A stretch of 64,000 nt of DNA from Bacillota bacterium. Its GTDB lineage: Bacteria > Bacillota > Sulfobacillia > Sulfobacillales > Sulfobacillaceae. The notes beneath the pieces are model-generated. The model was not told the DNA's origin. It did not search any database and saw only the letters and a program-made list of their open reading frames with translations. The translations under genes were made by a program, and so were the position numbers. Every line of letters starts with the position of its first letter. Positions within the stretch are counted from its first letter, which is position 1. The stretch is from NCBI GenBank assembly GCA_021784595.1, contig JAJYHT010000047.1, positions 1-64,000 of the forward strand, given 5' to 3'. Positions 2,687-19,412 of this stretch are shown here, piece by piece.

Positions 2687-2725
2687 GCTCATTCCTCCTA
2701 TCTCAATTGGCCATCCGACCGGGGA

Positions 2726-3538: not shown

Positions 3539-4818
3539 ATCAACCGAGTCGGGCGCGCGATCATTTCCTTTAACGTTTTGACGAAGCTCCCCGCTACCGC
3601 TCCATCAATCGCCCGATGATCAACCGTTAAGCTATAGGGCATCCTATAGCCCACCACAATATGGTCGTCTTGATCAACGATGGGATGTTTTTCCATAGCG
3701 CCTATGCCTAAGAGTCCGGATTGCCCGCGATGAAGTATCGGAGTGCCCCATTCCCCGCCGAAACTTCCAAAGTTGCTTAACGTCACGGTGCCTCCATTCA
3801 TGTCATCGGGACTCAAGCGTCCTTCACGGGCTTGAATAGCCAAAAAAGCCGCTTCGCGGTGAATCGCCACGAGCGACTTTTGATCAGCTTGACGAATCAC
3901 CGGCACCAACAGCCCTCGGTCGGTCGCCACCGCCAGGCCGATATTGACAGCGTCCCACTGCACCCATTCGTGATCGGTCAAAAAGCCGTTGAGCACCGGA
4001 TTGGCGGTCAAGGAGACGGCCAGCACGCGCACGAATATGGCGGACCAGGAGGGCGACACGCCTAAATACTCGTGGTCTTCTTGCAATGCTTGATATAGGG
4101 TGAGCAAGGCGCCGACATCAAACCACCCCATGAGCGTCATTTGAGCGGTTTCGGCCAAACTTTGCACCAAATTGCGAGCAATCGCCTGTCGAATGGGTGG
4201 GAGCGAACGCCGTTGCCCAAGACGCTGATCAGAACCCAAAGATTGATGTTCCGAAGACGTGCCGGCGGCCGCCTCTGCCCGGCGGACATCGTCGGCCAGC
4301 ACGGCATGGTCAGGACCGCTTCCCTCAATGGTGGACAAATCAAGCGCCCATTGCCGTGATAGCTCACGAGCCAAGGGTGTGGCTCTTATGAATGAATCGG
4401 TCCCCGGGTCCACAGTCTTGGCCTTTTTAGGTCCAAGATTCAGCACATCCTGACGAGTCACGCGAGCATGGGCGCTGTCGGCAGCAATGTCCGACAGTTC
4501 AACGCCCATCGAGCGAGCCAGGCGTCTAACCGAAGGCGCGGCGCGCCGAGTTTGTTCATTGTCTGGCGCAGCCAAAGGCTTCTCTTGCTGAGGATTGCGC
4601 ACAAATCCAATGACCTCGGTCATCCGTGCTCTTTGTCCCTCGGCCACCACGATTTCGAGCACCCCGTCGCCTGGCGACGCTAGATCGTTTACCACTTTAT
4701 CCGTTTCTAAGATTGCAATAATCTCATCTTTTTGGACAAATGATCCCGCCAGCTTGGTCCAACCTTGAATGAGCACATCCCCATCCTCTACACCAATTTT
4801 GGGAATCCGAATTTCCAT
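3535..4818 (-). CDS. 2-oxoacid dehydrogenase E2, dihydrolipoamide acyltransferase
   Basis: E2 core subunit of a 2-oxoacid dehydrogenase complex (branched-chain, acetoin or pyruvate type), 427 residues. The N-terminal lipoyl domain carries the lipoylated lysine in ETDKVVND (K41). A first E3/E1-binding domain follows (SVRRLARSMGVELSDI, about 95-125), then what reads as a second one (PLARELSRQWALDLSTI, about 150-185). The catalytic domain ends with the HxxxDG motif DHRAIDGA. Two binding domains in one E2 are unusual. The ATG at 4818 is preferred because GGAGG lies 7 nt upstream; a TTG one codon earlier is possible. E1beta ends 3 nt before it. No E3 (lipoamide dehydrogenase) is in the operon, so a shared E3 must come from elsewhere. 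Confidence 0.93.
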   Translation of the reverse strand: MEIRIPKIGVEDGDVLIQGWTKLAGSFVQKDEIIAILETDKVVNDLASPGDGVLEIVVAEGQRARMTEVIGFVRNPQQEKPLAAPDNEQTRRAAPSVRRLARSMGVELSDIAADSAHARVTRQDVLNLGPKKAKTVDPGTDSFIRATPLARELSRQWALDLSTIEGSGPDHAVLADDVRRAEAAAGTSSEHQSLGSDQRLGQRRSLPPIRQAIARNLVQSLAETAQMTLMGWFDVGALLTLYQALQEDHEYLGVSPSWSAIFVRVLAVSLTANPVLNGFLTDHEWVQWDAVNIGLAVATDRGLLVPVIRQADQKSLVAIHREAAFLAIQAREGRLSPDDMNGGTVTLSNFGSFGGEWGTPILHRGQSGLLGIGAMEKHPIVDQDDHIVVGYRMPYSLTVDHRAIDGAVAGSFVKTLKEMIARPTRLM

Positions 4819-4821
4819 CAA

Positions 4822-5799
4822 CTATCCTCCCTTCAGGGAACGATGCACCGCATCCACAATATCTTTGGCTCCCGGCAAAATATAGTCTTCGCTACGTCCG
4901 ACCGGCACCGGGGTAAACTGGCTGGTCACGCGAATTATGGGCGCATCCAGGTAATAGAGAGCCTTTTCTGCTATTAAAGCCGCGATCTCCGCGCCAAAGC
5001 CAAACGGCGCTGGCGCTTCGTGCGCCACAATCAGCCGATGGGTCTTTTTGACCGATGCCAAGATCGTCTCGCTGTCAATGGGCATGGCCGTTCGAGCGTC
5101 CACCACTTCGACCTCTATCCCCTCTTTAAAAAGTTCTTCGGCTGCCAAACGCGCGTGCTGTACCATAATCCCAATCGCTACCACGGTCACATCAGATCCC
5201 GGCCGCTGGACATGGGCCAGGCCTAAGGGAATCAGATACTCGTCATCGGGAACCGAGACTTTTGCCCCTAAAAGAGATTTTTGCTCCATAAAGATGACCG
5301 GATTAGGATCCCGTATGCTCGACTTCAATAAGCCTTTGGCTTCGTAGGCATCCGATGGCATCACCACCTTCAGTCCTGGAATATGGCCAAAAAGGCTTTC
5401 CAGACTTTGGGAATGATGCATTCCGGCCCGAAACCCGCCACCGCTGAGGGTGCGCACGACCAAAGGAATTTGCACCTGGCCGCCATACATGTAGCGCATT
5501 TTCGCCGCGTGATTAGCGATTTGGTCCATGGCCAAATACATGAAATCCATAAACATGATTTCCACAATGGGTCGCAATCCTAGTGCCGCCGCTCCTACCC
5601 CCAACCCCACAATGGCCTCTTCACTTATGGGCGTGTCCCGCACCCGCCGATCGCCATAGCGCGCTAGAAGACCGCGGGTTAATCCAAATGCTCCCCCGCT
5701 CTCGGCAACATCTTCCCCGATCAGGAAGACATCGGGATTGCGCGCCATCTCTTCGTCAATGGCCTGGGTAATCGCCCGTCGATAGCTCAACTGACTCAT
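4822..5799 (-). CDS. 2-oxoacid dehydrogenase E1 beta subunit
   Basis: This 325-residue transketolase-like subunit forms the alpha2beta2 thiamine-diphosphate E1 with the product of the next gene upstream. It has the family pattern: SYRRAITQAIDEEMARNP at the N-terminus, GEDVAESGGAFGLTRGL, DTPISEEAIVGLGVGAAALG, and the C-terminal transketolase domain with VVDARTAMPID and VAHEAPAPFGFGAEIAA. Length is standard for the family. The ATG at 5799 is used because GGAGGG lies 10 nt upstream and the homology begins there. An upstream in-frame GTG has no spaced ribosome binding site. PdhB, BkdB and AcoB are hard to tell apart from sequence alone. Confidence 0.93.
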   Translation of the reverse strand: MSQLSYRRAITQAIDEEMARNPDVFLIGEDVAESGGAFGLTRGLLARYGDRRVRDTPISEEAIVGLGVGAAALGLRPIVEIMFMDFMYLAMDQIANHAAKMRYMYGGQVQIPLVVRTLSGGGFRAGMHHSQSLESLFGHIPGLKVVMPSDAYEAKGLLKSSIRDPNPVIFMEQKSLLGAKVSVPDDEYLIPLGLAHVQRPGSDVTVVAIGIMVQHARLAAEELFKEGIEVEVVDARTAMPIDSETILASVKKTHRLIVAHEAPAPFGFGAEIAALIAEKALYYLDAPIIRVTSQFTPVPVGRSEDYILPGAKDIVDAVHRSLKGG

Positions 5800-5835
5800 G
5801 CCTGAAAATCCCTCCACTCCCTCAACTGTATGGAA

Positions 5836-6822
5836 TTACATCGAACCTTCTTGTGCGTAAACGTTGATTAGGAGATTTTCACGCGTGGGAAAAGGGCTCG
5901 CTTTGGCGCTCGCTACCGCCTGGCTCAACAGCTCTTCAATGTCTTTCTCCGACTGATCCAAATTAAACGCATCAAGAATACCCTCGTCTTGAATACGCTG
6001 GCGAAGCACCGGCAAAGGATCGCGTTTTTGCCAGGAGTCTACTTCCCCTTTATCACGGTATTCTTCTGGGTCTCCCTCATAGTGGCCATGCCAGCGATAG
6101 GTCTTAACCTCCACTAAGCTCGGCCCTTGACCGCTTCGGGCGCGGACAAACGCCTCTTGAAGGGCTCTGTAAGTTGTGTCCAGGTCATAGCCATCCACGG
6201 CTACTCCCGGCATGCCATAGGCGTCAGCCTTCTTGGCAATACGGGTTTCTTTCATTTCTTTTCTCAAGGGCGTCATTTCTGAGTACAAGTTATTTTCGCA
6301 AATGAAAACCAAGGGCAAGTTCCACAATGCGGCCAGGTTCATGCACTCGTGAAACGAGCCTCGCGTGGTAGCCCCATCGCCAAATCCACAAACCGCAATC
6401 CCCTCAGTCGCCTGATAAAATTGCTTGAAGGCTGCCCCCAATGCGAGCGGGAATCCGGCTCCTATCACGCCTGTACTGCCAAAGATTCCACGACTCACAT
6501 CAGCGGCGTGGGCTTCGCCACCCACGCCCCCGCAAAGACCCGATTGACGTCCCAAAATTTCCGCAATGAGCGCATGCGGTGGGACGCCCCGGGACAGGAA
6601 TGTGGCTTTGGAACGGTGATACGGCACAATATAGTCTTGCGATGTTAAAGCCACCCCTAATATCGATCCCACCAACTCTTGCCCAATACCCGAGTGAAGC
6701 CATCCATCAATCTCGCCCCGCCGAAACATATCGGACAGGATTTCCTCAAATCGTCGAGCGAGATAAAAATTGCGATAGATTTCGGTCAGGGTGTTCCCAT
6801 CAATCGCGTGAATTTCGCTCAT
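5836..6822 (-). CDS. 2-oxoacid dehydrogenase E1 alpha subunit
   Basis: This 328-residue alpha subunit decarboxylates a 2-oxoacid, or cleaves acetoin, with thiamine diphosphate and Mg2+. The ThDP motif runs from GDG (148-150) to NN (177-178) with the normal spacing, and a GGEAHAADVS segment precedes GSTGVIGAGFPLALG. The latter resembles acetoin dehydrogenase E1 chains, while the rest is compatible with branched-chain or pyruvate enzymes. GGGGGA stands 6 nt before the ATG. It is the first gene of the E1alpha-E1beta-E2-LipL set and lies about 60 nt after the acyl-CoA dehydrogenase. That neighbour favours a branched-chain 2-oxoacid role, in which the acyl-CoA product would pass straight to the dehydrogenase. 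Confidence 0.93.
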   Translation of the reverse strand: MSEIHAIDGNTLTEIYRNFYLARRFEEILSDMFRRGEIDGWLHSGIGQELVGSILGVALTSQDYIVPYHRSKATFLSRGVPPHALIAEILGRQSGLCGGVGGEAHAADVSRGIFGSTGVIGAGFPLALGAAFKQFYQATEGIAVCGFGDGATTRGSFHECMNLAALWNLPLVFICENNLYSEMTPLRKEMKETRIAKKADAYGMPGVAVDGYDLDTTYRALQEAFVRARSGQGPSLVEVKTYRWHGHYEGDPEEYRDKGEVDSWQKRDPLPVLRQRIQDEGILDAFNLDQSEKDIEELLSQAVASAKASPFPTRENLLINVYAQEGSM

Positions 6823-6879
6823 AACTAGTCCCCCTACAAGGTGATGTCAAGATATCTGAGCCTGCACTGTTGCCATGAA

Positions 6880-8031
6880 TCATGCGTTGAGCATTTCTCG
6901 CGCAATGATGTGACGCTGAATCTCTGAAGTTCCGCCGCCGATTTCAAACAGCTTGGCATCGCGCATGAAACGTTCAACCGGAAATTCCTTGATATAGCCA
7001 TACCCGCCCAAAATCTGGACTGCCTGAGTGGTCGCCCGCATGGCCACCTCCGAGCTATAGACCTTGCAGGCGGCCGAAACCAGGGTTGCATCACCGAGCC
7101 TTCCCCTATCACACAGATAGGCGGCTTTTAGCACCAACAAGCGGGTGGCCTCAATTTCGATCAGCATGTTGGCCAGCTTCTCTTGGATCATCTGGAATTG
7201 GCTTATCGATCGGCCGAATTGCTTTCGTTCCTTGGCATACTGCATGCTAACATCCAAGGCTCCCTGGGCCAGGCCCAGCGCCGATGCTCCCATAATCACC
7301 CGCTCGCTGTTTAACCCAGCCATGAGGACTTGCATGCCGCGATTCTCGCCACCCACCACATGGGTGGCGGGCACCCGGCAGTCTTGGAAAATCAGTTCAC
7401 CCGTTGGCGACCCCCGCCACCCCATCTTTTCGAACTTCTTGCCCTTGGTAAACCCGGCCGACGGATAGTCCACCAAAATGAGGCTGATCCCTCCTCGCCT
7501 ATCATTGGGATCGGTACGCGCATAAACCATCGCCAAATCGGCGTCAGGTCCGTTGGTAATAAAGACCTTGGATCCATTCAGCACATACTCTGGGCCTTGC
7601 TTATCCGCCACAAGACTCATGGAAATCACGTCGGATCCAGCGCCGGGCTCGGTCATCGCCAAACAGCCTACGATTTTTCCCGAACACAGGTCTGGCAGGT
7701 ACTGTTGCTGCTGGTCCGGGGTGCCACTGCGCACCAAATTGTCAATCACCAGACAGGCCTGGTGCAGGATAGTGGCCGCCGTGGATACGCACACCCGAGA
7801 AAGCTCTTCCGCCACGATCGCCATTTCCAGCACGCCGAGGCCCGAACCGCCAAATTTTTCCGGTGCAGTGATTCCCAAAAGGCCCATGTCGGCGGCCCGC
7901 TGCCAGCTCTCGCGTGGGAATCTCTCGTCCCGATCAATTTCATATGCCAGAGGCGCTACCTCCTTTTGGGCAAAATTTCGTACGGTTTCCTGCAACATCT
8001 TTTGCTCTGGGGTCAACTCGAAATCCAACAT
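6880..8031 (-). CDS. Acyl-CoA dehydrogenase (isovaleryl/long-chain type base placement)
   Basis: FAD flavoprotein of 383 residues that oxidises an acyl-CoA to the 2-enoyl-CoA and passes electrons to ETF. Signature MTEPGAGSD and the C-terminal QILGGYGYIKEFPVER and RDAKLFEIGGGTSEIQRHI are present. The usual short/medium-chain catalytic glutamate (YEGTS) is a glycine here (IGGGTS). A glutamate in GLNSERVIM (E243) occupies the alternative site used by isovaleryl-CoA and long-chain enzymes. This suggests a branched or long acyl substrate. The start at 8031 has GGAGGG 5 nt upstream; the 13 codons before it lack family similarity. The alcohol dehydrogenase gene precedes it by 48 nt. Confidence 0.93.
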   Translation of the reverse strand: MLDFELTPEQKMLQETVRNFAQKEVAPLAYEIDRDERFPRESWQRAADMGLLGITAPEKFGGSGLGVLEMAIVAEELSRVCVSTAATILHQACLVIDNLVRSGTPDQQQQYLPDLCSGKIVGCLAMTEPGAGSDVISMSLVADKQGPEYVLNGSKVFITNGPDADLAMVYARTDPNDRRGGISLILVDYPSAGFTKGKKFEKMGWRGSPTGELIFQDCRVPATHVVGGENRGMQVLMAGLNSERVIMGASALGLAQGALDVSMQYAKERKQFGRSISQFQMIQEKLANMLIEIEATRLLVLKAAYLCDRGRLGDATLVSAACKVYSSEVAMRATTQAVQILGGYGYIKEFPVERFMRDAKLFEIGGGTSEIQRHIIAREMLNA

Positions 8032-8079
8032 TTTGTCCCTCCTATGTGGTGTGCTGCGCACTGTGCCCATCTCCCCGCC

Positions 8080-9132
8080 TTAGTCAGGGAACAACATGAC
8101 TCTCATCGCCTGAGGTTCTTCGATAAGCGTTTTAAAGGCCCGGTCCGCATCGCGCAGAGAAAATCGATGGGTCACTAAGTGCGAGGTATGCACTGCATGG
8201 CGTTCCAAATATTCCAAGCCCCGGGGAATCATGGAGCCTAAAACGCCCATCACACGAATATCTTTCAAAATAATGCGGCTGACGTTCACCTCCGATGGCC
8301 GTTCGGGTAATCCGACCAGTGCCACAGTTCCCCCTGACCGCACAAATCCCAAGCTGTCATTAAATGTCTCCCGGGCTCCCGCGGTATCGTACACAATATC
8401 TGCCATACCGCCCTTTCCAAAGTGATGAAGGCCAATGCCGGTCACCGACTGCACCGCAGCCAGCAGATCGTCGGTTTCTCGGGGATTGATCACCACATCG
8501 GCCCCGGCACTGCGCGCCCACTCGGACCGGCTGGCAGACACCTCGCTTGCGATGATCTGTTTGACCGGTATCGTCTTTAGCACTTGAATAATCAAATTGC
8601 CAATCATGCCCGCCCCGATGACAATGGCCACATCGTCACCGCTGGGCTTGGTGCGCGCCACTGCGTACAATGCCGTTCCCAAGGGTTCTGCGGTGGCGCC
8701 CTCTTCATCTGATAAGGTGGGCGGAATGACAAATAAATTCTCGCCAACCACGGCATTGTCAATCTTCACATACTCCGCCATCGCTCCCGCCCGTCCGTAG
8801 CCAGTGTAGGTCTCGAACAAATGTGGGCAGAGTCGGAATTGCCGGTGACGGCACCAGTAGCACTCACCGCAAAAACTCGCCGAAAAGCCTGTGGCTCGTT
8901 GCCCCAACCCAATTCCGGTCACCGCTGGCCCAATTTCCACCACCTCTGCGCAAAACTCATGTCCCATAATTTGGCTAGGAAATGCATACAGTCCGCTACG
9001 ATAAGTATGCAGGTCAGATCCGCAAATACCCACCGCCTTAACTTTGAGCAGTACGTCTTGCGGCCCAATCTGGGGTTGCGCAATGTCTTTAATTTGAATG
9101 TTGCCTGGCCCCGCAAACACAGCAGCTTTCAA
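8080..9132 (-). CDS. Zinc-dependent alcohol dehydrogenase (MDR family)
   Basis: This 350-residue medium-chain dehydrogenase oxidises a secondary or polyol-type alcohol with NAD(P). The catalytic-zinc segment GICGSDLHTY and GHEFCAEVVEIG, the four structural-zinc cysteines in CGECYWCRHRQFRLC, and the Rossmann GAGMIGN are all visible. It resembles sorbitol, butanediol and threonine dehydrogenases. The natural start is a TTG at 9132 (LKAAVFAGPGN), 8 nt after an AGGAGG; the longer reading adds 12 residues without similarity. It follows the acyl-CoA synthetase by 65 nt. In this operon it could make the ketone or aldehyde that feeds the carboxylase or the CoA ligases. Confidence 0.92.
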   Translation of the reverse strand: MKAAVFAGPGNIQIKDIAQPQIGPQDVLLKVKAVGICGSDLHTYRSGLYAFPSQIMGHEFCAEVVEIGPAVTGIGLGQRATGFSASFCGECYWCRHRQFRLCPHLFETYTGYGRAGAMAEYVKIDNAVVGENLFVIPPTLSDEEGATAEPLGTALYAVARTKPSGDDVAIVIGAGMIGNLIIQVLKTIPVKQIIASEVSASRSEWARSAGADVVINPRETDDLLAAVQSVTGIGLHHFGKGGMADIVYDTAGARETFNDSLGFVRSGGTVALVGLPERPSEVNVSRIILKDIRVMGVLGSMIPRGLEYLERHAVHTSHLVTHRFSLRDADRAFKTLIEEPQAMRVMLFPD

Positions 9133-9197
9133 CCCTGTCCCCTCCTTTGCCATCCGTTCCTGAGACATGCCATCTCATTGCCGCCCAGTTTGGCGGG

Positions 9198-10763
9198 TTA
9201 GGGCACCATGGCCCCAGGTTCGTCGGCCCCGCCGGAAAAAATAGTCGGCATCATTTGTTTTCTTAAGGCCTCTTTGAGCACTTTGCCGGTGGCATTGCGC
9301 AACAGATCGTCTACGAACCGCACATAATGGGGTTTTTTGTAGCTGGCTAGGTGCAGGCCGCAATACTGTACAACTTCATCCGCGCTCAGCGAATGTCCCG
9401 GGCGCACAACCACCACAGCCATCACCACTTCGCCCCACCGTTCATCGGGTACCCCAATCACCGCGGCCTCGAGCACGGCGGGGTGGTACGCGAGAAGGTC
9501 TTCTAGCTCTTTGGGGTAAATGTTTTCTCCCCCACTAATAATCATGTTCTTCTTCCGATCGACCAGATATAGAAAACCATCCTCATCCTGGCGTGCCAAA
9601 TCCCCGGTGAGAAACCAGCCGTGGCGAAAGTTGCGCCGGGTCTCATCCGGTAAATTCCAGTAGCCACGCACCACCGTTTTTCCCTTGATGGCAATTTCGC
9701 CAATTTCTCCTGGACGTGCGACCTTCATGGCATCGTTTAACAAGCTAAGCTCGACGTGCATAAACGGTTTGCCAATCGATCCCATTCGGCTAAGTCCCTC
9801 TTCAGACGGCAAAAAAGTCGACACCGAGGTCCCTTCCGTCAAACCATATCCTTGGACAAAATTGGGCGATAGGCGGGCCATGGCATCTTCGATTATGCGG
9901 GTGGGTAAAGGAGCGCCCCCACAGACTATCAGGCGCAAACTGGTGCGGTCATATGCCTCGATGTCGGGCAGCTTCAGCCAATCGTAAATCATGGTGGGTA
10001 CTGTCATCACCGTGGTAATGCGGTGTTCGGCAATCGTCGCCAGCGCTTGCCCAGCATCGAATCGGTTGGCGATAAACACAGTGCCGCCTACATGCAAAAG
10101 GGGAAACGTCAAATCATAGAGTCCAGATACGTGAAACAATGGGCAGACCACCAGCGTGGAATCATGGCGGGTTAGATCCAGGTCAAGAATTTGATTGAAG
10201 GAATTCCACATCGTGTTTTCATGTGTGATTACGGCCCCTTTGGGGGTGCCGGTGGTTCCCGAGGTGTACAGCAGCAGCTGGTCATCGTCTAAATTGAGGG
10301 TCACATCGACCGCCAGTTGGGATGATTCGCCAGCGATTGCCCCTTCGTAAGAAATAAACGGGCAATCGTTGGTGGACCCCACTACCATAATGGTGCGCAA
10401 GGTCGGCAATTGACTCCAAAGCACCGGCATCTCCGGACAGCGGGATTGGTCCACAATCAGTGCGCAGGCGTCGGCATCTTGCAAGACAAAACGAATTTCC
10501 TCATGACCTTGACGCCAATTAACCAGCACCATAATGGCTCCCAATTTGGCCAAGGCAAAATAGATTTCGAGATACTCCACCACATTGGGCAGTAGCACAC
10601 CAACACGATCGCCTTTTTTGATTCCCAGCCGAAAAAGTGCATTAGCCAATTGATTGGCGCGTTGATTGAGCTGGCGGTAGGTCCGCTGTTGCGCTCCGGC
10701 CGCCACGGCGATTTTGTGAGGTCGCGCTTGCGCTTGCCTATCCAATAGTAAACCGACATCCAT
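9198..10763 (-). CDS. AMP-dependent acyl-CoA synthetase (class I adenylate-forming)
   Basis: Activates a carboxylic acid to its CoA thioester through an acyl-AMP intermediate. The protein has 521 residues. The P-loop-like LLYTSGTTGTPKGA, the GYGLTEG motif, the hinge region TGDLARQDEDGFLYLVDRKK, the GGENIYPKELE segment and the catalytic lysine in ATGKVLKEALR are all present. The start at 10763 is decided by a GGAGGG 8 nt upstream; an in-frame ATG 33 codons earlier has no support. Its overall pattern is closest to the medium-chain/aryl-CoA ligase branch. The gene follows the Cys/His-rich unknown by about 100 nt with no visible terminator, so it is likely in the same operon. The acid it uses is unknown. 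Confidence 0.93.
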   Translation of the reverse strand: MDVGLLLDRQAQARPHKIAVAAGAQQRTYRQLNQRANQLANALFRLGIKKGDRVGVLLPNVVEYLEIYFALAKLGAIMVLVNWRQGHEEIRFVLQDADACALIVDQSRCPEMPVLWSQLPTLRTIMVVGSTNDCPFISYEGAIAGESSQLAVDVTLNLDDDQLLLYTSGTTGTPKGAVITHENTMWNSFNQILDLDLTRHDSTLVVCPLFHVSGLYDLTFPLLHVGGTVFIANRFDAGQALATIAEHRITTVMTVPTMIYDWLKLPDIEAYDRTSLRLIVCGGAPLPTRIIEDAMARLSPNFVQGYGLTEGTSVSTFLPSEEGLSRMGSIGKPFMHVELSLLNDAMKVARPGEIGEIAIKGKTVVRGYWNLPDETRRNFRHGWFLTGDLARQDEDGFLYLVDRKKNMIISGGENIYPKELEDLLAYHPAVLEAAVIGVPDERWGEVVMAVVVVRPGHSLSADEVVQYCGLHLASYKKPHYVRFVDDLLRNATGKVLKEALRKQMMPTIFSGGADEPGAMVP

Positions 10764-10862
10764 GCTTGGATCCCTCCTCGCGGCATCGAAATTCTGGCTT
10801 TGATCTCCGTACTCACGGTCTGTCCCACCCGACCTCAACGAGCCGGGGTTGGGTCCACGCAC

Positions 10863-11609
10863 CTAAGACTCATTGGAATCCGTGCCCGATGGCGTGGGCC
10901 GTCGGTGTTTGGCCAACTCTTCGGACTTGTTAAGGCCATAGCGGGTATAGAATCGTTCCGGGACTTGTTCGGGGTCCTTATAAAAGTACCAGGTGCACCA
11001 ATGGTCAGGAGTTTGGGGAGGATCCAATGGATAGAGCGGCGTACCCGTCCACTCAATCGGCATTAACTCGTTCATGAGGGTGCAATGTGAGCAGTAGTAC
11101 GGAAAGTCCTTGCGATTAAAGGACCATTGGTGCGGCTTCTCGGTCAATCCATAGCTTTTCGGCGGATCGTAAAACCCTCGGCGCCACAACCGTTGTCCAC
11201 TGCCGCAGGGCGCCATCGTAAAGGTCAGCTTGTCATCATCTTCTTCCACGCTGAAGGCCCCGGCTTTTGGACCCACACCACTGGTGCTGTGCGCTCTCCA
11301 GGTGGCTGCCAACGCCATCGCAACCTGGCGCCGATCTCTTTTGCCAATTTCATCCACGGCATCTTTCCAAACTTTTTCGGTCATATACCGCAGCGCATCG
11401 CCGACCCGGTCTTCTCCTTCCGCTTGGCCAATGTAAGTTAAGAGGGCTGCCATCGATTCCACCATAAGGTCATGAAGAAAACCCCATTCCCGTTTCATTT
11501 CCCCGCATATCTTTATGGCGTCATCCAACTCGCCAGCTTGGATTTTTTCGATCACGCGGTCCATGGTAGGGCGGCTCATCTGGTTTAACGTCTCTTTATC
11601 AAACCACAT
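10863..11609 (-). CDS. Unrecognised Cys/His-containing protein in catabolic operon
   Basis: I cannot assign a family with confidence. The 248-residue product has a helical N-terminal half rich in charged residues. From residue 130 it carries a cluster of likely ligands: PCGSGQR (C135), YYCSHCTLMNEL (C173, H175, C176) and DHWCTWYFYK (H203, C205). This arrangement could bind a metal or Fe-S cluster, or form a thiol active site. It recalls, without proof, the L-2-amino-thiazoline-4-carboxylate hydrolase-like proteins that sit near acyl-CoA ligases. No signal peptide or membrane segment is seen. The start at 11609 is chosen because AAAGGATGG precedes it; an ATG three codons upstream overlaps that site. 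It lies between a short-chain dehydrogenase and an acyl-CoA synthetase, so a role in the same pathway is likely. Confidence 0.75.
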   Translation of the reverse strand: MWFDKETLNQMSRPTMDRVIEKIQAGELDDAIKICGEMKREWGFLHDLMVESMAALLTYIGQAEGEDRVGDALRYMTEKVWKDAVDEIGKRDRRQVAMALAATWRAHSTSGVGPKAGAFSVEEDDDKLTFTMAPCGSGQRLWRRGFYDPPKSYGLTEKPHQWSFNRKDFPYYCSHCTLMNELMPIEWTGTPLYPLDPPQTPDHWCTWYFYKDPEQVPERFYTRYGLNKSEELAKHRRPTPSGTDSNES

Positions 11610-11646
11610 ACCAACCATCCTTTCACAATCGAGAGTCCCGGGGAAT

Positions 11647-12429
11647 CTACTTGCGTATCTCTGCCAGCGTGATCGGATTCAAATGCGCGCCGCCATCAAT
11701 GGGAATGGCCGCTCCGGTGATGTACCCCGCCTGCTCCGAGGCTAAAAATGCAACCAGGGCTGCGACATCCTCAGGAGTCCCAAAGCTTCCTTTAGGAATG
11801 AGTTTTAATGTCTGTTCTTTCAGTTCGGGGGGTAGGGCCTTGACCGCCGTGGTCCCAATCATTCCCGGCAGCACAGCATTGCAGGTGATGCCCGCGGCCG
11901 CATACTCCAAGGCAATGGTCTGGGTCAGACCCAAGATCCCAGCCTTGGTGGCGGCATACCCCGGTTGACGGTCCAGTCCGCTAATCGCCGCCACCGAGCT
12001 CATATTGATGATGCGCCCCCATCCCTCTTTATGCATGCCCGGTAAAACGGACCGTGCACCGTAAAATACCGACGTTAAATTGACGTCCAGTTCTCTCTGC
12101 CAGCGTTCCAACGACATCATTTCGGTTTTGGCGATATTGTTGGTGATGCCCGCATTGTTGACGAGAATTGCAATGGGCCCCCATTCGCGCTTGGCCCGGG
12201 ACACCGCCTCTTCGAAAAAGGCGTACTGGGAAACGTCTCCCTGCAGAGCCAACACCTTGACCCCGATGGCTTCCAATGCTTGTTGAGTTTTTGTGACTGC
12301 CGGCTCAATATCGGCCAACACCATACGGTACCCATCCGCTCCCAAACGCATCGCGATGGCCCGTCCCAATCCTCTGGCCGCCCCGGTAACCAACGCCACC
12401 CGTGGTTCTTTATCTGCCTGATTTACCAA
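11647..12429 (-). CDS. Short-chain dehydrogenase/reductase (FabG-like)
   Basis: Classical SDR of 260 residues that interconverts an alcohol and a ketone with NAD(P). It has the cofactor motif VTGAARGLGRAIA, the NNAG motif in ILVNNAGIT, and the catalytic Ser/Tyr/Lys (NMSSVAAISG, then YAATKAG). The C-terminal GAAIPIDGGAHLNP is typical of 3-oxoacyl-ACP/CoA reductase-like members. The TTG start at 12429 lies 9 nt after GGAGG and overlaps the preceding SDR gene by 7 nt, which suggests coupled translation. It may reduce a 3-ketoacyl-CoA or oxidise a 3-hydroxyacyl-CoA made by the crotonase; specificity is not readable. Confidence 0.92.
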   Translation of the reverse strand: MVNQADKEPRVALVTGAARGLGRAIAMRLGADGYRMVLADIEPAVTKTQQALEAIGVKVLALQGDVSQYAFFEEAVSRAKREWGPIAILVNNAGITNNIAKTEMMSLERWQRELDVNLTSVFYGARSVLPGMHKEGWGRIINMSSVAAISGLDRQPGYAATKAGILGLTQTIALEYAAAGITCNAVLPGMIGTTAVKALPPELKEQTLKLIPKGSFGTPEDVAALVAFLASEQAGYITGAAIPIDGGAHLNPITLAEIRK

Positions 12430-13181
12430 CGCGAAACGCCTCCATCGATATATAAAGTTTGACCGGTGACATAACTCGCGCCATCTGATGCTAAAAACAC
12501 CACCGCGCCCGCGATTTCATGGGGATTGCCCACACGGCCGAGCGGAGTGCGCTCAAGCACAGGTGCCATGAAGTCCGTATTGCCTTGGACAAAGTTCGCC
12601 ACCCCGACCCCCATGAATCCGGGTGCAATGGCATTTACCCGAATTCCCTTAGGGCCCCATTCTCCGGCCAATTGTTCGGTCAGTTTGATCAAAGCCGCCT
12701 TACTCACCGCATAAGCGCCTAACCCCTCAATGCCTACCGCAGCGGCTGAGGAAGCCATGTTTATGATAGACCCGGCGCCGATAGAAATCATAGCCGGCGC
12801 ACAGACTTGAGCGCATTCCAATGCCCCCACCACATTAACCTCGAACAGCTTTTTCATCCCATCCGCCCGCGTATTCGCCATCGAGGCGGCAAATGGGCTG
12901 ATGCCCGCATTATTGATTAGCACATCAATGTGACCGTACCGGTCCAGCACCCGGTTGGCCATGGCTTCGATGCTTGACCTATCGGTAACGTCCAATGGAC
13001 AGGCAAACACCTCATAGTCGACCATTTCACGGACCACTGCTTCAGAGGCCGACAATTGGCGGCTGGCCACCACGACGCTGGCTCCGGCTTGAGCCAAAGC
13101 GCGCGTGACAATGCGCCCAAGTCCCCCACTGCCCCCGGTGACTATCGCGGTTTTGCCATCTAAATTCAGGTCGTAACCCAT
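12423..13181 (-). CDS. Short-chain dehydrogenase/reductase
   Basis: Second classical SDR of the operon, 252 residues. It has VTGGSGGLGRIV, the NNAG motif (LINNAGISPF), and a catalytic serine in NMASSAAAVG followed by YAVSKAAL. It ends with GQTLYIDGGVSRW, usual for 2-hydroxyacid or 3-hydroxyacyl oxidoreductases of the FabG/gluconate dehydrogenase group. GGAGG stands 7 nt before the ATG, inside the end of the upstream acyl-CoA synthetase gene, so the two are translationally linked. Two SDRs side by side suggest two successive or stereospecific oxidations. Confidence 0.92.
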   Translation of the reverse strand: MGYDLNLDGKTAIVTGGSGGLGRIVTRALAQAGASVVVASRQLSASEAVVREMVDYEVFACPLDVTDRSSIEAMANRVLDRYGHIDVLINNAGISPFAASMANTRADGMKKLFEVNVVGALECAQVCAPAMISIGAGSIINMASSAAAVGIEGLGAYAVSKAALIKLTEQLAGEWGPKGIRVNAIAPGFMGVGVANFVQGNTDFMAPVLERTPLGRVGNPHEIAGAVVFLASDGASYVTGQTLYIDGGVSRW

Positions 13182-13183
13182 GA

Positions 13184-14776
13184 CTAGTCCTCCATCACGC
13201 GCAGCACATCTTTAAGCACCTTGCCTCCCGGATTGCGCGGCAAAACGTCTGTAATTTGAACTGATTCGGGGACCATATAGCGTGCCAGCCGAGACTGACA
13301 AAATTCACGGATTTGCTGAGGACTCTGGGACTGTCCTGGTTTTAGCACCACAAAGGCTTTGACCGTCTCACCCCAGACATCGTCCGGGATTCCCACCACC
13401 GCCCCTTCCAGCACGGCAGGGTGCTGATATAGGACGTTTTCCACCTCGATCGAGTAGATATTTTGCCCACCCCGGATGATCATGTCTTTGATCCGATCCA
13501 TCACGTAGACAAATCCATCATCGTCAATGCGTCCGACGTCGCCGGTCTTGAGCCATCCTTGCCTAAACGTCGCTTCGGTAGCCTCAGGGTTGTTCCAATA
13601 TCCTCTAATCACCGAAGGCCCTTTGACCAGCAGCTCGCCCACTTTGGCATCCTCGTCCAGTGCGTCCACCCGCACCTCCAAGGTAGGTGCCGGCAGGCCT
13701 ACGGAATCCGCCTTGGCCAAGGCGGCCTGATCGGGCAGCATGGTCGTAATCGACGTGCTTTCGGTAAGTCCCCAAACGTTTCCCAAACGGACGTTTGCAA
13801 AGCGCTCCTTTAGCCGGCGAATCAGCGCCACGGGGGCAGGAGAGCCCCCATAGGTGATATAGCGAAGACTCGATAAATCCCGCTCCGCCAGCTGCGGTGA
13901 TTCCAGGAGAAACCAAAACATGGTAGCGACTCCGATGGCGATAGTAATCTTTTCCTTTTCAAGCTGCGCAATAAAGTCGTCAGTCTTGAAATATGGCCGG
14001 ATGACGCTGGTGGCACCGGCATACAGCATGGCCGTCAATTGCGAGTTGATCGCCGTCGCATGGAACAGCGGAGCCACAATGAGGGTGCGATCGTCCACAG
14101 CAACCTCCATTAACCGGGTAGCATTCATGGCATTGGAAATGAGATTCTGATGACTTTGGATAGCACCCTTGGGCATTCCGGTGGTGCCAGAGGTATATAA
14201 CAAGGCGGCCGGTTCCGCTTCATCTATTGATGTCTCTACATACGGCAAGCGTTTGTGACGAAATGTGTCCCACGACAGGACGCCGTTGTCGGTATCATGA
14301 TCCAACACCACGGTTAGCCGCAGTTGAGGAAGCGTTCCGGGGACAAACCCGAGCGTTTGCCAAATTTTATGCTCCACCACCAGCAACTTGGTTCCCGAAT
14401 CCCGCAGCATGAAATCCAGTTTATCCGGCTTCAACCGGGCATTTAGCACGACTGCAATGGCGCCCACCTGTTGGATGGCATAATATCCGACCGCAAATTC
14501 CAGCCTGTTTTCCATGAGCAGTCCGACCCGATCCCCATGATTAATGCCATAGTAGGTAAGCGACTCGGCAGTGGCTCGCACCTCTTGGAAAAACTTTGCA
14601 AATGTCCAGCGGGTTTGATTGAATACCAGGCACTCTCGATGGCCCCATCGCTCTACGCTTTCCCTCAGCACCTGATTGAGCGAGGTGGGTCGGGGATAAT
14701 ACATTTTCATCTCTATCCCGGCCACCGTCTCTAGCCGAATATCTTGGTACGCCCGCATTGGAAACTCATTCATCAT
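13184..14776 (-). CDS. AMP-dependent acyl-CoA synthetase (class I adenylate-forming)
   Basis: Second complete acyl-CoA ligase of the operon, 530 residues. It has LLYTSGTTGMPKGAI, NVWGLTESTS, the hinge KTGDVGRIDDDGFVYVMDR, GGQNIYSIEVE and the catalytic lysine in NPGGKVLKDVLR. It is only distantly similar to its paralogue at 9198-10763, so the two probably activate different acids or act at different steps. GAGGGGGG precedes two consecutive ATGs, either of which could be used. It is separated from the HyuB-like carboxylase gene by 44 nt. In acetophenone-type degradation a CoA ligase acts directly after the carboxylase on the 3-oxoacid, which would fit this position. Confidence 0.93.
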   Translation of the reverse strand: MMNEFPMRAYQDIRLETVAGIEMKMYYPRPTSLNQVLRESVERWGHRECLVFNQTRWTFAKFFQEVRATAESLTYYGINHGDRVGLLMENRLEFAVGYYAIQQVGAIAVVLNARLKPDKLDFMLRDSGTKLLVVEHKIWQTLGFVPGTLPQLRLTVVLDHDTDNGVLSWDTFRHKRLPYVETSIDEAEPAALLYTSGTTGMPKGAIQSHQNLISNAMNATRLMEVAVDDRTLIVAPLFHATAINSQLTAMLYAGATSVIRPYFKTDDFIAQLEKEKITIAIGVATMFWFLLESPQLAERDLSSLRYITYGGSPAPVALIRRLKERFANVRLGNVWGLTESTSITTMLPDQAALAKADSVGLPAPTLEVRVDALDEDAKVGELLVKGPSVIRGYWNNPEATEATFRQGWLKTGDVGRIDDDGFVYVMDRIKDMIIRGGQNIYSIEVENVLYQHPAVLEGAVVGIPDDVWGETVKAFVVLKPGQSQSPQQIREFCQSRLARYMVPESVQITDVLPRNPGGKVLKDVLRVMED

Positions 14777-14820: not shown

Positions 14821-17127
14821 TTAGTCCAATTCAAATTCTTGGAGCACGGGGTCGCCTTGCCGCGCCACTTCGTTGGCCAGCAAAACAGCACACTCGGGAC
14901 AGTAAAATTCTCGAAATTCCATCGGCACATCCACAAAGCGCGCGGGATCGCCGTAGTAATACCCCGCTTGCGCAATGGGCGCATTCCATCGCGAAAGAAG
15001 CTCTTTCACATTTCCGGTGGCCGGCCCTAACACGGCGTGACACTGATTGCATCCATAGAATTTATCGCCATTAGGTTCAGTGACCAGGACAAGTTGGTCG
15101 CCCAGGATGCGCAGATCCCCACGATCGTAAAACCGGCTGCTAGTGACCAGCGGTTTGGCAGCGCGATCCAGACGCTCCTGGCGGATGGCGCTTCGGCGGT
15201 TCTTGGTTTCTACCGGATCCAGCTCACCGTCCCGTGTCAGTGCCACCCCATAGACTGCCTGGGCAAATGGTTCAGTAATGATGCCTTTTCGCACGTCCTC
15301 CACCACACGCGTGGGGTCGCGCAATATGGGGTCACCAAAGCCAGCGGAGGAACCCCAATTCCATTCCACCACATCAGACAATCCAACCGGGATCGGCAAC
15401 CCTTTATTGGCGCACAATTCGAGTAGCCCGCTCAACTCTTCAAATGACTGCGGCACGCGTCCCTCGGCCATGGTCTGCCGCACCGAACTATTGTGCAGAA
15501 TTCTGCTGGTGTTGCATGACCCAGGATAGCCGCCAGCGATTCCTGACGTCTTCGGCACACCCTCGGCGGTCGCCACCGCTACCGCTAGGTATGATCCATC
15601 GTAAGGCACATATCCCACCAACCCGCCATTGCCTCCGCGGGTTCTTCCGGCACCGCCCGAATTGATATGTTCTCGGCGGTATAAATAGAGAACCGGCCAA
15701 ATCGATTCGTAGTATTCCACGTTTGGTCCCCGTCCTTCCGGAATCCAAAAACTTCCGTCACCAGCCACCCCATCCGTCTTCGGCGTCGCGCCCCGAGTTC
15801 CAATCATTTGATCGGTCAATGTCACAATAGCGGGCTTGCCATATTGGTCCAGACCTGCTAAAAGCGTGCTTCCCCATTGAGCCGGTCCCGTGGTGAGGGC
15901 ATAGTCGTGCAAAGCTTCAGAACAGCTGAGCATTTTGGCCACCAATGCATTGGCCATGGCGATCGCCAATTCTGTGGCATAAATGCCGGCTGGGCTGACA
16001 GCTGCCCCAAAATCAGGACAGGTCATGGTGCCCGGAGTTGGTTCAAATATGCAGTGGCGTGCAACGCCTCCCAAAAATGCGGTAAAACCGCCTAATGCAC
16101 CCATTTGCTCAGGCAGCATGAGTACATTAAGCACACCCAGAATGGCTCCGCGCCAACCTGCAAAGGGGAGATTGGCTGACCCCTTTTGGGGGTCCGTTCC
16201 CTCATTGCGAAAAATGAGTTGGTCACCGCGCTTGGTAAGCGTCATCATCCATTGATATACGCCACGATCCCCCGTGACTGCCACCTCCTGGTAAGCGCGT
16301 TCCCGCCACGTGCCATCGGGAATTAATTCAAGCCGTTGCACCAAAGCCACTTCACTGGCACGGATAATGCGACGCATGACTGCCTTGACCACCGCAGCGC
16401 CATATCGCTCAACGAGCTCTAAAATACGATCCTTACCCACATGATTGCCGGCCACACCCGCCCTAAGATCCAGCGAAAGCGCTACAGGCAACCGCGACTG
16501 ACGTTTGTACAAATCCTCTACTTGTCGCACCACGCGGCCCCGCTCTACGATTTTAATCGGCGGAAAACAAGGCGGATCATGAAACACATCCGTCGCATCG
16601 GGACAAAAACTGCCCGGAGTGGTGCCCCCCACGTCGGCTTGATGCATGGCGTTGGCCACCCAACAGAAAATTTTTCCTTCCACAAACACCGGACATAAAA
16701 GACCCACATCGGGTTGGTGGGCTGTTCCCACCCAGGGGTCGTTTTGCAAAAACATGTCTCCTTCAAAAATTCCAGGGTCCTCGCTGCGATTTTCCAAGGT
16801 CCACTTGACCATCAAATCCATCATTCCCGACATATATTGCAAATGCGGACCAAAAAATACAAAGTCAGCATCCTCCGTCAAGATCACGGTTTGAAAATCA
16901 CGCGTTTCCAACGTGATAGGAGACACCGCCAGCTTTTCAATAGTTTTGCCATGTTCCAAATTGATGTTTTGCAGAGCGTGTCGGATGACTTCGAATGTGA
17001 TCGGGTCTACGTGGTCCGCTTCTTCTGAGTGCAATTGGACGCTTGGGTGGATATACAGCTGATCCCCGGGGATGTAGGAACGCTCCACTCCGTTCCAGTA
17101 TCGCGTTCCGCCAATGACAGTAGCCAT
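14821..17127 (-). CDS. HyuB/acetone carboxylase alpha-like subunit with fused C-terminal Zn-type domain
   Basis: This 768-residue protein belongs to the hydantoinase B/acetone carboxylase alpha family. With the HyuA-like partner it would carry out an ATP-dependent reaction such as ketone carboxylation or hydantoin/oxoproline hydrolysis. Typical segments are DPITFEVIRHALQNIN, GDMFLQNDPWVGTAHQPD and AMHQADVGGTTPGSF. The last 80 residues differ from plain HyuB: they contain YGCNQCHAVLGP and FYCPECAVLLANEV, two CxxC pairs like those in the small gamma subunit of acetone carboxylases and the zinc-binding small subunit of acetophenone carboxylase. This looks like a gene fusion of catalytic and zinc subunits. 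The fusion and the neighbouring CoA ligases favour a ketone carboxylase over an oxoprolinase. Confidence 0.9.
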   Translation of the reverse strand: MATVIGGTRYWNGVERSYIPGDQLYIHPSVQLHSEEADHVDPITFEVIRHALQNINLEHGKTIEKLAVSPITLETRDFQTVILTEDADFVFFGPHLQYMSGMMDLMVKWTLENRSEDPGIFEGDMFLQNDPWVGTAHQPDVGLLCPVFVEGKIFCWVANAMHQADVGGTTPGSFCPDATDVFHDPPCFPPIKIVERGRVVRQVEDLYKRQSRLPVALSLDLRAGVAGNHVGKDRILELVERYGAAVVKAVMRRIIRASEVALVQRLELIPDGTWRERAYQEVAVTGDRGVYQWMMTLTKRGDQLIFRNEGTDPQKGSANLPFAGWRGAILGVLNVLMLPEQMGALGGFTAFLGGVARHCIFEPTPGTMTCPDFGAAVSPAGIYATELAIAMANALVAKMLSCSEALHDYALTTGPAQWGSTLLAGLDQYGKPAIVTLTDQMIGTRGATPKTDGVAGDGSFWIPEGRGPNVEYYESIWPVLYLYRREHINSGGAGRTRGGNGGLVGYVPYDGSYLAVAVATAEGVPKTSGIAGGYPGSCNTSRILHNSSVRQTMAEGRVPQSFEELSGLLELCANKGLPIPVGLSDVVEWNWGSSAGFGDPILRDPTRVVEDVRKGIITEPFAQAVYGVALTRDGELDPVETKNRRSAIRQERLDRAAKPLVTSSRFYDRGDLRILGDQLVLVTEPNGDKFYGCNQCHAVLGPATGNVKELLSRWNAPIAQAGYYYGDPARFVDVPMEFREFYCPECAVLLANEVARQGDPVLQEFELD

Positions 17128-17163: not shown

Positions 17164-19257
17164 TTACAACGTAAGAATGAAATTGCCCAGTGGATCACGA
17201 TGAAACGACTGGCCCGGGTGGACCACAATACCAGTATCCGGCAGCTCTACAATACAAGGACCTTCAAAATCCACACCCGGTCCGATTTGCAATCCGTCGA
17301 ACACATCGGTCACCACGAAACGCTGATATTCTTGCCAGTAAACCTCGCGCGCCTTTAGCCGCGCATCCGCCGATGATTTGTGTGCGCCATCAATGCCGCC
17401 CAATGCCAGATTTCGGTTGCCAACAGCCTCTGAGCGCACCGACACCAGTTCAATTCCCACGCCTAACACCTGCGCGCCATGGCCATAGAGCCGAGCGTAA
17501 GAATCCTCAAAGCGCTGAACCCAGGCGCTGACCGCATCGCTAGAAGACAACCCATCCTCGGGCAACGAGACTTCTACTTCATGGGTTTGTCCCTGGTAGC
17601 GAAATTTTCCATAGTTGTGAAAAACTAAATCATCCGCCGCTATCCCTTGTTTCTGCACCACTGCACCCGCCTTTGACTCCAATTCATCAAAAGCTTGATT
17701 CACCGCTTCGTGATCAAAAGGCACCGTCAACAACAACTCGCGCTCTGTAATCTCTTTGAAGTCTGCAAAAGCAGCCCCAAATGCCGACCACACCGAGGCG
17801 GTGTCCCCGCCCGGCACCACCACCCATTGCGCTCCCAGCGCCCTGGCGTAGGACCCTGCATGAAGCGGGCCTGCTCCCCCATAGGAGAAAATAACAAAAT
17901 CCCGCGGGTCATAACCGCGGGCAATGGTTTCTCGATGCAGCAGATCGGCCATGCGTGCGTTGGAAATGGTCAGAATCCCTTGGGCTACCTCGGTCGCCGA
18001 CAGATTCAGTTGGTGTCCCAACTCCGTCAGGACTTGGGCGGCTAGTGCCCGATTGACGGTGATGCTTTCTCCAAAAGTGGCGCCATCTCGAATGTAACCC
18101 AAAAAAACGTTAGCATCAGTGACCGTGGCCTGTGTTCCACCACGGCCGTAGCAAGCAGGGCCTGGAAACGCTCCCGCACTTTGCGGACCCACCCGCAGCG
18201 AGCCACTCGCTCTGTCAACCCATGCCACACTGCCTCCTCCAGACCCAATAGACTCGATGTCTACTTTGGGAATCGTATAATGGAATTGGTTTATGACATT
18301 GACGTTTTTAACAGCTGTCTTGCCATCGGCGATGATGCCCACATCAAATGAGGTTCCGCCCATGTCGGTTGCAATGACATGAGAATGATTTAATTGGCGG
18401 GCAAGAAACTGAGACGCGGTGATACCGGCCACTGGACCTGAATCCAACGTCATCAGCGGAACCACTTGGGCTTGTCCGACCGAGACCGCGCCGCCCCCGC
18501 ATTGCATAATCAAGAGATTAGATTTATAGCCCATGGCGTGTAGTTTATTTTCACATTCAGACAAGTATCGCGAAACCTTGGGTCCGATGTAGGCGTTGAT
18601 GACGGATGCGCTATATCGCTCATACTCACCCATTCTGGGAGAGACCTCGTGAGATGAGGTGACAAATAGATGGGGTGCAATGCCTTGAACAATCTCTTTC
18701 GCGGCAAGTTCATGTTGCGGGTTTTTAAAACTCCACAGAAACGCCACCGCAATGGCTTGGCATCCTCGTCCGACCAACTGCCTGACCGCGTCCTCAACCT
18801 GTGCCTCTTGCAATGGCACCACCACACGTCCCGCATAATCGATCCGCTCGTCAACTTCGACAATCATATTATAATCCACCAGGGGTTCGGGCTTGCGGGT
18901 GGTGGTGACCGCAAACAACTGCTCCACGGGCAGGCCTGCCGTGCGCCCCATGCCGCGTTGCATAAGAAGTCCGTCCTTATGTCCGCGGGTCGTAATCAAT
19001 CCAGTTTTGGCCCCTTGCAATTCAATCATAATATTGGTGGCGATGGTTGTGCTCAACACCATCGTGTCCACTTCGGCCACAAACCCTGGCAGTTCTCGCC
19101 CGAGCTTTTTTGCCAAGATGGCTAATCCCTCGAAAAACCCCTGATTAAAGTCTTTAGGGGTGGTAGGAGCCTTAGCGATCACAAGATTTCCGCCCGAGTC
19201 GATGGCCACGCAATCGGTAAAAGTCCCGCCGATATCAACCCCAACCTGATAACTCAT
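17164..19257 (-). CDS. HyuA/acetone carboxylase beta-like ATPase subunit
   Basis: ATP-binding partner of the HyuB-like subunit, 697 residues, in the actin/ASKHA fold. The N-terminal phosphate loop VDIGGTFTDCVA, a second phosphate loop ATDMGGTSFDVG and adenosine motif YGGAGPLHAGSYARALG are present. In acetone and acetophenone carboxylases this subunit phosphorylates the ketone enol or bicarbonate. The start is the ATG at 19257, 7 nt after GGAGG. It is the promoter-proximal gene of the operon, with a leader of about 150 nt below a TetR-type palindrome. The 36-nt gap to hyuB supports a stoichiometric pair. Oxoprolinase and hydantoinase functions remain possible alternatives. Confidence 0.92.
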   Translation of the reverse strand: MSYQVGVDIGGTFTDCVAIDSGGNLVIAKAPTTPKDFNQGFFEGLAILAKKLGRELPGFVAEVDTMVLSTTIATNIMIELQGAKTGLITTRGHKDGLLMQRGMGRTAGLPVEQLFAVTTTRKPEPLVDYNMIVEVDERIDYAGRVVVPLQEAQVEDAVRQLVGRGCQAIAVAFLWSFKNPQHELAAKEIVQGIAPHLFVTSSHEVSPRMGEYERYSASVINAYIGPKVSRYLSECENKLHAMGYKSNLLIMQCGGGAVSVGQAQVVPLMTLDSGPVAGITASQFLARQLNHSHVIATDMGGTSFDVGIIADGKTAVKNVNVINQFHYTIPKVDIESIGSGGGSVAWVDRASGSLRVGPQSAGAFPGPACYGRGGTQATVTDANVFLGYIRDGATFGESITVNRALAAQVLTELGHQLNLSATEVAQGILTISNARMADLLHRETIARGYDPRDFVIFSYGGAGPLHAGSYARALGAQWVVVPGGDTASVWSAFGAAFADFKEITERELLLTVPFDHEAVNQAFDELESKAGAVVQKQGIAADDLVFHNYGKFRYQGQTHEVEVSLPEDGLSSSDAVSAWVQRFEDSYARLYGHGAQVLGVGIELVSVRSEAVGNRNLALGGIDGAHKSSADARLKAREVYWQEYQRFVVTDVFDGLQIGPGVDFEGPCIVELPDTGIVVHPGQSFHRDPLGNFILTL

Positions 19258-19412
19258 CAAGATTCCTCCCTGTTCTATCTGATCTAGGTGGAACCAAAAC
19301 GGTAGTGCCTAGTGGTTAGCTATCTTTTTTCTCACCATACTGGGCCACCATCGAACTTATCCGGTCCGAAAACCGAGCTGTCGCCACCTCGTTTAGGCAT
19401 ATTGGTAACACA

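Follow-up and report, generated by a model that had tools for sequence, protein, structure and literature searches.

What does a protein do that carries a cluster of cysteines, resembles no common enzyme family and is encoded in the middle of a run of catabolic genes? The question is raised by a gene of a Bacillota bacterium of the Sulfobacillaceae (assembly GCA_021784595.1), hereafter gene X, which lies in the 64,000-nucleotide stretch of contig JAJYHT010000047.1 that we analyzed as a whole and call the window. A first-pass annotation had singled out the motifs PCGSG, CSHC and HWCTW of the encoded protein as a sign of metal or thiol chemistry. All three are present (C138 in the first; C176, H178, and C179 in the second; H206 and C208 in the third), contributing six Cys/His residues and not the five that had been counted; the total number of cysteines in X is five. 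The minus-strand open reading frame of X covers 10863-11618 and encodes 251 residues, and this form is used for residue numbering throughout. The start at 11609 chosen in the first-pass annotation is nevertheless the preferable one, because AAAGGA lies 8 nt ahead of its ATG, whereas the same AAAGGA leaves no spacing before the ATG at 11618 or even runs across it.

Gene X belongs to a minus-strand run that extends from a TetR-type regulator to an acyl-CoA carboxylase carboxyltransferase subunit (Table 1). The HyuB-like protein of this run continues for ~170 residues beyond its Hydantoinase_B match, and the CxxC motifs CNQC and CPEC were seen by eye in this extension, which is perhaps a fused zinc domain.

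Table 1. Genes of the minus-strand run around gene X, in gene order, with their positions in the window.
Feature	Position	Strand	Remarks
TetR/AcrR-type regulator	19590..20168	minus	31% identity to RHA1_RS42990, annotated TetR/AcrR
HyuA-like subunit (hyuA)	17164..19260	minus	best NCBIfam match caprolactamase alpha, second best acetophenone carboxylase gamma; each scores far short of its cut-off
HyuB-like subunit (hyuB), Cys-rich C-terminal extension	14821..17127	minus	Hydantoinase_B; ApcD/CapB-like below cut-off
AMP-forming CoA ligase 1	13184..14776	minus	43% identity to pRHL3 ligase
SDR 1	12423..13181	minus	
SDR 2, FabG-like	11647..12429	minus	directly upstream of X
Gene X	10863..11609	minus	248 aa; 251 aa with upstream ATG at 11618
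AMP-forming CoA ligase 2	9198..10862	minus	true start probably downstream of 10862
Zn-dependent alcohol dehydrogenase (ADH)	8080..9168	minus	threonine-dehydrogenase-like, below cut-off
Acyl-CoA dehydrogenase	6880..8070	minus	59% identity to pRHL3
TPP-dependent dehydrogenase E1 alpha	5836..6822	minus	
TPP-dependent dehydrogenase E1 beta	4822..5817	minus	
E2 acyltransferase	3535..4821	minus	lipoyl and E3-binding domains
Lipoate-protein ligase-like protein	2726..3538	minus	
Enoyl-CoA hydratase/isomerase (ECH)	1904..2692	minus	
Acyl-CoA carboxylase carboxyltransferase subunit	116..1660	minus	

Searches against curated families bore out the earlier remark that no common enzyme family is evident. 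Pfam returned zero families for X, including V4R (PF02830), ATC_hydrolase (PF14196), and any DNA-binding domain, and its matches in seven homologues were below the cut-off or absent; TPR models reached E values of 0.1 and 0.11 in two of the seven, and PF14196 matched in none of them. Likewise, no PF14196 match was found in the window's own genome. NCBIfam provided no model at its cut-off for X or for four homologues, and no clear hit to a known non-enzymatic family emerged from these scans. Literature searches covering the pRHL3 locus described below, related Rhodococcus clusters, ATC hydrolase, DUF1116, and V4R listed no title or opening of an abstract that concerns X. The X family has no curated model in either database and is most likely a variant within a known superfamily.

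The closest homologues of X, with 82, 70, and 71% identity (L001, L003, and L002, respectively), all come from Bacillota bacterium MAGs. The next one is encoded on plasmid pRHL3 of Rhodococcus jostii RHA1 (RHA1_RS42950, WP_011600302.1, annotated as "hypothetical protein"; 55% identity), and three other Rhodococcus plasmids carry homologues of near 31%. Two of these plasmid proteins, WP_065493512.1 and WP_226949923.1 (about 30-31%), share the same four cysteines with X but have a longer N terminus. More distant relatives are found in L010 (33%), L021 and L022 (27% each; 25 and 27% by blastp), and L042. In the class of the host, a profile search detected X in 5 of 154 genomes; it is present in three of 398 genomes sampled from the host phylum, host included, and in 1 of 63 and 2 of 59 genomes of the classes to which two carriers belong. 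Plasmid records, through which alone the other phyla were sampled, contained it in 4 of 72,556 cases. Viral contigs gave 19 pattern matches with no relative among them. Weak X-like hits in the host's own genome (L005 and L006) and in its relatives (L011 and L012) were rejected, as the visible reading frames look unrelated by eye, and those in G131 and G081 were dropped when the whole-class profile search did not repeat them. In L022, a stretch of 863 bp is present as an exact tandem duplication (8035-8897 and 9380-10242). X is therefore found there twice, without a single difference over 723 bp, but the SnoaL-like gene that comes next is not the same behind the two copies; these paralogues are identical at 90 of 161 positions, stop included.

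An alignment of 10 family members, the window protein included, was built from Bacillota MAGs, other genomes of the host phylum, and Rhodococcus, with identities as low as about 25-27%. Thirteen of its columns are invariant: H49, D50, C138, S140, G141, Y175, C176, C179, G192, C208, Y213, K214, and P220. X comprises a predicted helical N-terminal part with the invariant pair H49-D50 and a C-terminal part with C138, C176, C179, and C208. H49 and each of these four cysteines are found in 10/10 members; further histidines and the fifth cysteine are less well kept (H110, 9/10; H178, 8/10; H163, 7/10; H206, 3/10; C38, 3/10). The occurrence of four of the five cysteines of X among the 13 invariant columns has a hypergeometric P of 2e-5, a value that ignores the relatedness of the sequences. 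The clustered residues highlighted in the first-pass annotation are thus conserved as far as the four cysteines are concerned, with none of the 10 aligned members lacking them, but not in the case of H206. Substitution patterns show that X is under purifying selection: synonymous differences are high (pS 0.78, saturated, against L001; 0.80 against L002; 0.76 against the pRHL3 homologue), whereas the corresponding pN values are 0.13, 0.20, and 0.31. The four invariant cysteines probably hold a metal, and their pattern suggests that C138, C176, C179, and C208 bind one zinc.

To what extent is X tied to its neighbors? In L001 and L002, the gene order of the window is kept as far as their DNA reaches, apart from the ECH in L001 and the lipoate ligase in L002, which were not found. 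Two contig ends that overlap inside X make up the locus of G127, where the order is TetR, CoA ligase 1, SDR 1, SDR 2, X, and ADH, and where CoA ligase 2 does not lie between X and ADH. On pRHL3, the matching module reads acyl-CoA dehydrogenase, E1 alpha, E1 beta, E2, ADH, IS3-family element, X, lpdA (E3), SDR, and AMP ligase; it differs from the window in the insertion element between ADH and X, in lpdA after X, and in the lack of HyuAB in the stretch. The element is ISRhosp5 (16677-17908 of L014), and it may break the transcript between ADH and X. Besides the acyl-CoA dehydrogenase and CoA ligase 1 (Table 1), the products shared by the window and pRHL3 are identical by 58% (E1 beta), 55% (ADH and X), 48% (ECH, over 198 aligned residues), 42% (E1 alpha), 38% (CoA ligase 2), 36% (SDR 2), 33% (E2), and 30% (SDR 1); in this comparison both SDRs of the window match one pRHL3 SDR, and both ligases match one ligase. 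A position between an SDR on one side and a CoA ligase on the other, which had been described as fixed, is therefore not general for X. It is true of three of the five module loci (window, L001, and L002); in G127, X is followed by ADH, and in RHA1 it sits between the IS3 element, which comes after ADH, and lpdA.

Among the 34 genomes of the host family, ADH (E at most 1e-60) occurs in four, G000, G127, G129, and G146, and a whole-class search with the X profile (E at most 0.001) matches, within the family, the same four alone. E1 beta homologues are present in 34/34 genomes, but identities of at least 77% are confined to these four, the next best being 55%. By hand calculation, the chance that two sets of four coincide among 34 is about 2e-5, a figure to be read with the physical linkage of the genes in mind. 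Because the genes are physically linked, the co-occurrence of X and ADH speaks for inheritance as a block. Together, these data show that X is inherited with the catabolic module as a block, which for linked genes is no demonstration of a shared reaction. The placing of X in a catabolic operon by the first-pass annotation is supported by its co-inheritance with ADH and E1 beta in 4/34 family genomes and by the presence of the module on pRHL3.

Outside the module, distant homologues of X belong to other catabolic clusters, where they have quite different partners. It follows a Gfo/Idh-type dehydrogenase in L010/L023 and L021 (identified by Pfam in L021 and by eye in L023); in L021, the genes after X encode a protein that is Cgl0159-like and a member of the M24 peptidase family, with M20-like peptidases seen by eye farther on. 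In L015 and L016, X, there represented by the two Rhodococcus plasmid proteins named above, is flanked by an SDR on one side and by two genes of the glutamine-synthetase family on the other; these clusters also include DUF1116, glutaminase, and alpha/beta hydrolase genes. Each X copy of L022 is followed by a SnoaL-like gene (the first is SnoaL_4 by Pfam), upstream of genes that look ETF-like by eye and of an acyl-CoA dehydrogenase-like gene, 30% identical to that of the window; no alcohol dehydrogenase adjoins X. In the loci of the module, as well as in both Gfo/Idh loci and in the two Rhodococcus SDR/glutamine-synthetase-like clusters, a dehydrogenase gene adjoins X or is one gene or insertion element away. 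Given the L022 locus, a dehydrogenase beside X is common but not universal. Regulators that look AcoR-like were noticed near X in two unrelated lineages (8077-9987 of L014, annotated as GAF domain-containing, and 5445-7397 of L022, by eye), and they might hint at a ketone or a hydroxyketone as the inducer. Contig C59 of G393 (L021 and L073) carries, in addition to X (6403-7074), a gene of the PF14196 ATC-hydrolase family at 49532-49939, ~42 kb away.

The L-2-amino-thiazoline-4-carboxylate (ATC) hydrolase family, which had been suggested as a lead, gives nothing by Pfam, as described above; by profile comparison it is the nearest candidate relative, at a level below certainty. When X (nine rows) was first compared with PF14196, represented by six sequences, the result was null (P 0.39). 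With 18 sequences, the unique ones kept from 32 extracted by their Cys pattern, the score was 24.9 (P 0.005), a value obtained again in repeat runs, compared with 17.7 for the best of 150 column shuffles, 19.4 for the best of a second, cleaner set of 200 of which 199 gave a score, and 14.8 for the reversed alignment. The best of 23 decoy chunks reached 18.8; another decoy, at 18.3, was an ATC-hydrolase group that had slipped the filter. Exchanging the roles of the two profiles gave 22.8 (P 0.012) against 19.1 for the best of 60 shuffles. Because selection by the Cys pattern could favor a match, the test was repeated without it: 28 sequences picked by profile scored 27.6 (P 0.0015; best of the 197 out of 200 shuffles that gave a score, 20.6), in an alignment of 97 columns that runs from the helical part to C138. 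Global alignment yielded a P of 0.03, dropping single rows gave P values from 0.003 to 0.042, and a P of 7e-6 obtained with the hhalign option -corr 0.4 was set aside as non-default. Since the hhalign probabilities are only 7 and 17%, we grade the placement of X near the ATC-hydrolase family as suggestive. In a full-length alignment of low confidence, C138, C176, and C208 pair with the three cysteines of the ATC-hydrolase row L032.

The equivalent comparison of X with V4R (21 of 25 extracted sequences, four having been dropped as wrong reading frames or partial) was null, with a P of 0.28 that lies within the shuffles; with the two profiles exchanged, one shuffle out of 60 reached 31.3. ATC hydrolase and V4R, compared with each other, gave a P of 5e-4. 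According to PMC5847659, the two share a cluster of three conserved cysteines and are grouped with HNOB. The Cys pattern and the weak profile similarity suggest that X is remotely related to the ATC-hydrolase family, and through it to the V4R superfamily.

Structure prediction added little to this picture. AlphaFold2 models were built from four close sequences each, for the whole protein and for residues 95-232, and their mean pLDDT values of 54.5 and 49.9, respectively, denote low confidence. Foldseek and VIA-align searches with these models returned nothing meaningful, with no V4R or ATC-hydrolase structure among the rows listed; the rows comprised histidine kinases, pyruvate dehydrogenase kinases, and EMC and TPR proteins, and we did not use them for function. 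TPR proteins also appeared among the VIA-align rows for the helical part of the low-confidence model, where EMC subunits, of which EMC2 is a TPR protein, had Z scores up to 6.4. The model is predicted to be helical to about residue 112, followed by a beta-beta-alpha-beta-beta arrangement in which C138 lies just after strand 2, C176 just before the helix, C179 in the first turn of the helix, and C208 at the start of the last strand. By eye, ATC-hydrolase sequences have a similar order of Cys motifs. Going by the low-confidence models of X, the two would have in common a helical N-terminal part with subsequent strands, and cysteines at a strand end, at a helix start, and before the last strand. 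X differs from them in the missing Pfam hit, in having CGSG and CxHC motifs as well as the invariant H49-D50, and in a longer insert separating the first cysteine from the second.

Taking these observations together, we favor, at a probability of roughly 40%, a reading in which X is a metal-binding enzyme, the metal most likely being zinc, that resembles ATC hydrolase, belongs to a mobile catabolic module, and uses as its substrate the carbonyl compound made by the dehydrogenase encoded next to it. The gene context suggests how such an enzyme could operate. The neighboring dehydrogenase (ADH or SDR in the window; Gfo/Idh or SDR elsewhere) would generate this carbonyl compound, and X would break a bond in it, most likely in a hydrolytic or lytic reaction. 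The resulting 2-oxo acid or alpha-hydroxyketone would then be taken by the TPP-dependent E1 component.

A different role is conceivable for a protein with such relatives, namely that of a zinc-binding sensor or allosteric partner, a V4R-like ligand binder that regulates the dehydrogenase complex and catalyzes nothing. We consider this unlikely, without being negligible. Like the predicted C-terminal part of X, the V4R/XylR_N domain of the sensors MopR, PoxR, and CapR has a Cys-rich beta-alpha-beta core, but X has no significant profile match to it and, by eye, lacks the V4R signature E-x2-C-x7-C. PMC2253512 presents V4R as a predicted hydrocarbon-binding domain that occurs alone or fused mainly to regulatory or signaling domains, and a predominant association with transcription-regulation and signaling domains is also what PMC10715001 conveys; that V4R proteins are known chiefly from such roles and not as enzymes speaks against the favored reading. 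According to PMC10715001, three cysteines and one glutamate of the V4R phenol sensors coordinate zinc for structural integrity, whereas a histidine and a tryptophan anchor the phenol. As the zinc of these sensors is called structural, a zinc in X would not by itself show catalysis. A sensor of this type would have to act on a protein partner, because Pfam shows no DNA-binding domain in X. The module, however, already has its TetR-type regulator, and X is found inside runs of enzyme genes, where it shares 4 or 8 bp with a neighbor (in RHA1 and in R. opacus 1CP), and in the company of quite different partners elsewhere; these features argue against a regulatory role.

Of similarly low probability is the explanation that X, while an enzyme, has a fold unrelated to these families and perhaps new, in which the four cysteines form a structural zinc site and H49-D50 and H110, in the helical part, are the catalytic residues. 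The invariance of H49-D50 and the near invariance of H110 would fit this, as would the null V4R comparison and the lack of a significant match to X in the PDB sequence search. Against it stand the PF14196 profile scores, which exceed all of the 150, 199, and 197 shuffles and the 23 decoys.

The gene run that X shares with HyuA and HyuB raises the further option of an accessory subunit of the enzyme that these two constitute. Acetone and acetophenone carboxylases have small subunits. HyuA/HyuB gave no match, however, in the stretches around X of G127 (its X contigs), pRHL3, L021, L022, and L015, nor do they occur in the annotation of L016. The existence of X in stretches without HyuAB disfavors this proposal, which we regard as improbable. 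Least credible of all is the idea that X opens rings as an amidohydrolase related to AtzD and barbiturase: the sole NCBIfam match of X, to TIGR02714 (E 0.0076), scores at chance level (15.3 bits, with the cut-off at 153.1), spans only residues 57-133/137 without the conserved cysteines, and recurs in 0/4 homologues scanned, and barbiturase, the only entry returned by the PDB sequence search (E 0.15), is absent from the PDB profile searches.

The metal-binding, ATC-hydrolase-like enzyme acting downstream of a dehydrogenase is thus the reading that we retain, and X probably represents an unrecognized step of the breakdown pathway encoded by the module, as the first-pass annotation, whose interpretation is partly borne out, had surmised. 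More tentatively, and with doubt prevailing, X could found a new family of zinc-dependent enzymes that split or hydrolyze a carbonyl compound supplied by a neighboring dehydrogenase; this would be a reaction without an assigned gene, carried by a module that is present in Bacillota and Rhodococcus, and the enzyme would have been reused in other catabolic clusters. Conserved, equipped with a probable metal site, and bound to one ADH/TPP-dehydrogenase module in the host family and again on pRHL3 of R. jostii RHA1, an actinomycete much studied in the laboratory, X is a tractable candidate for an unassigned catabolic reaction.
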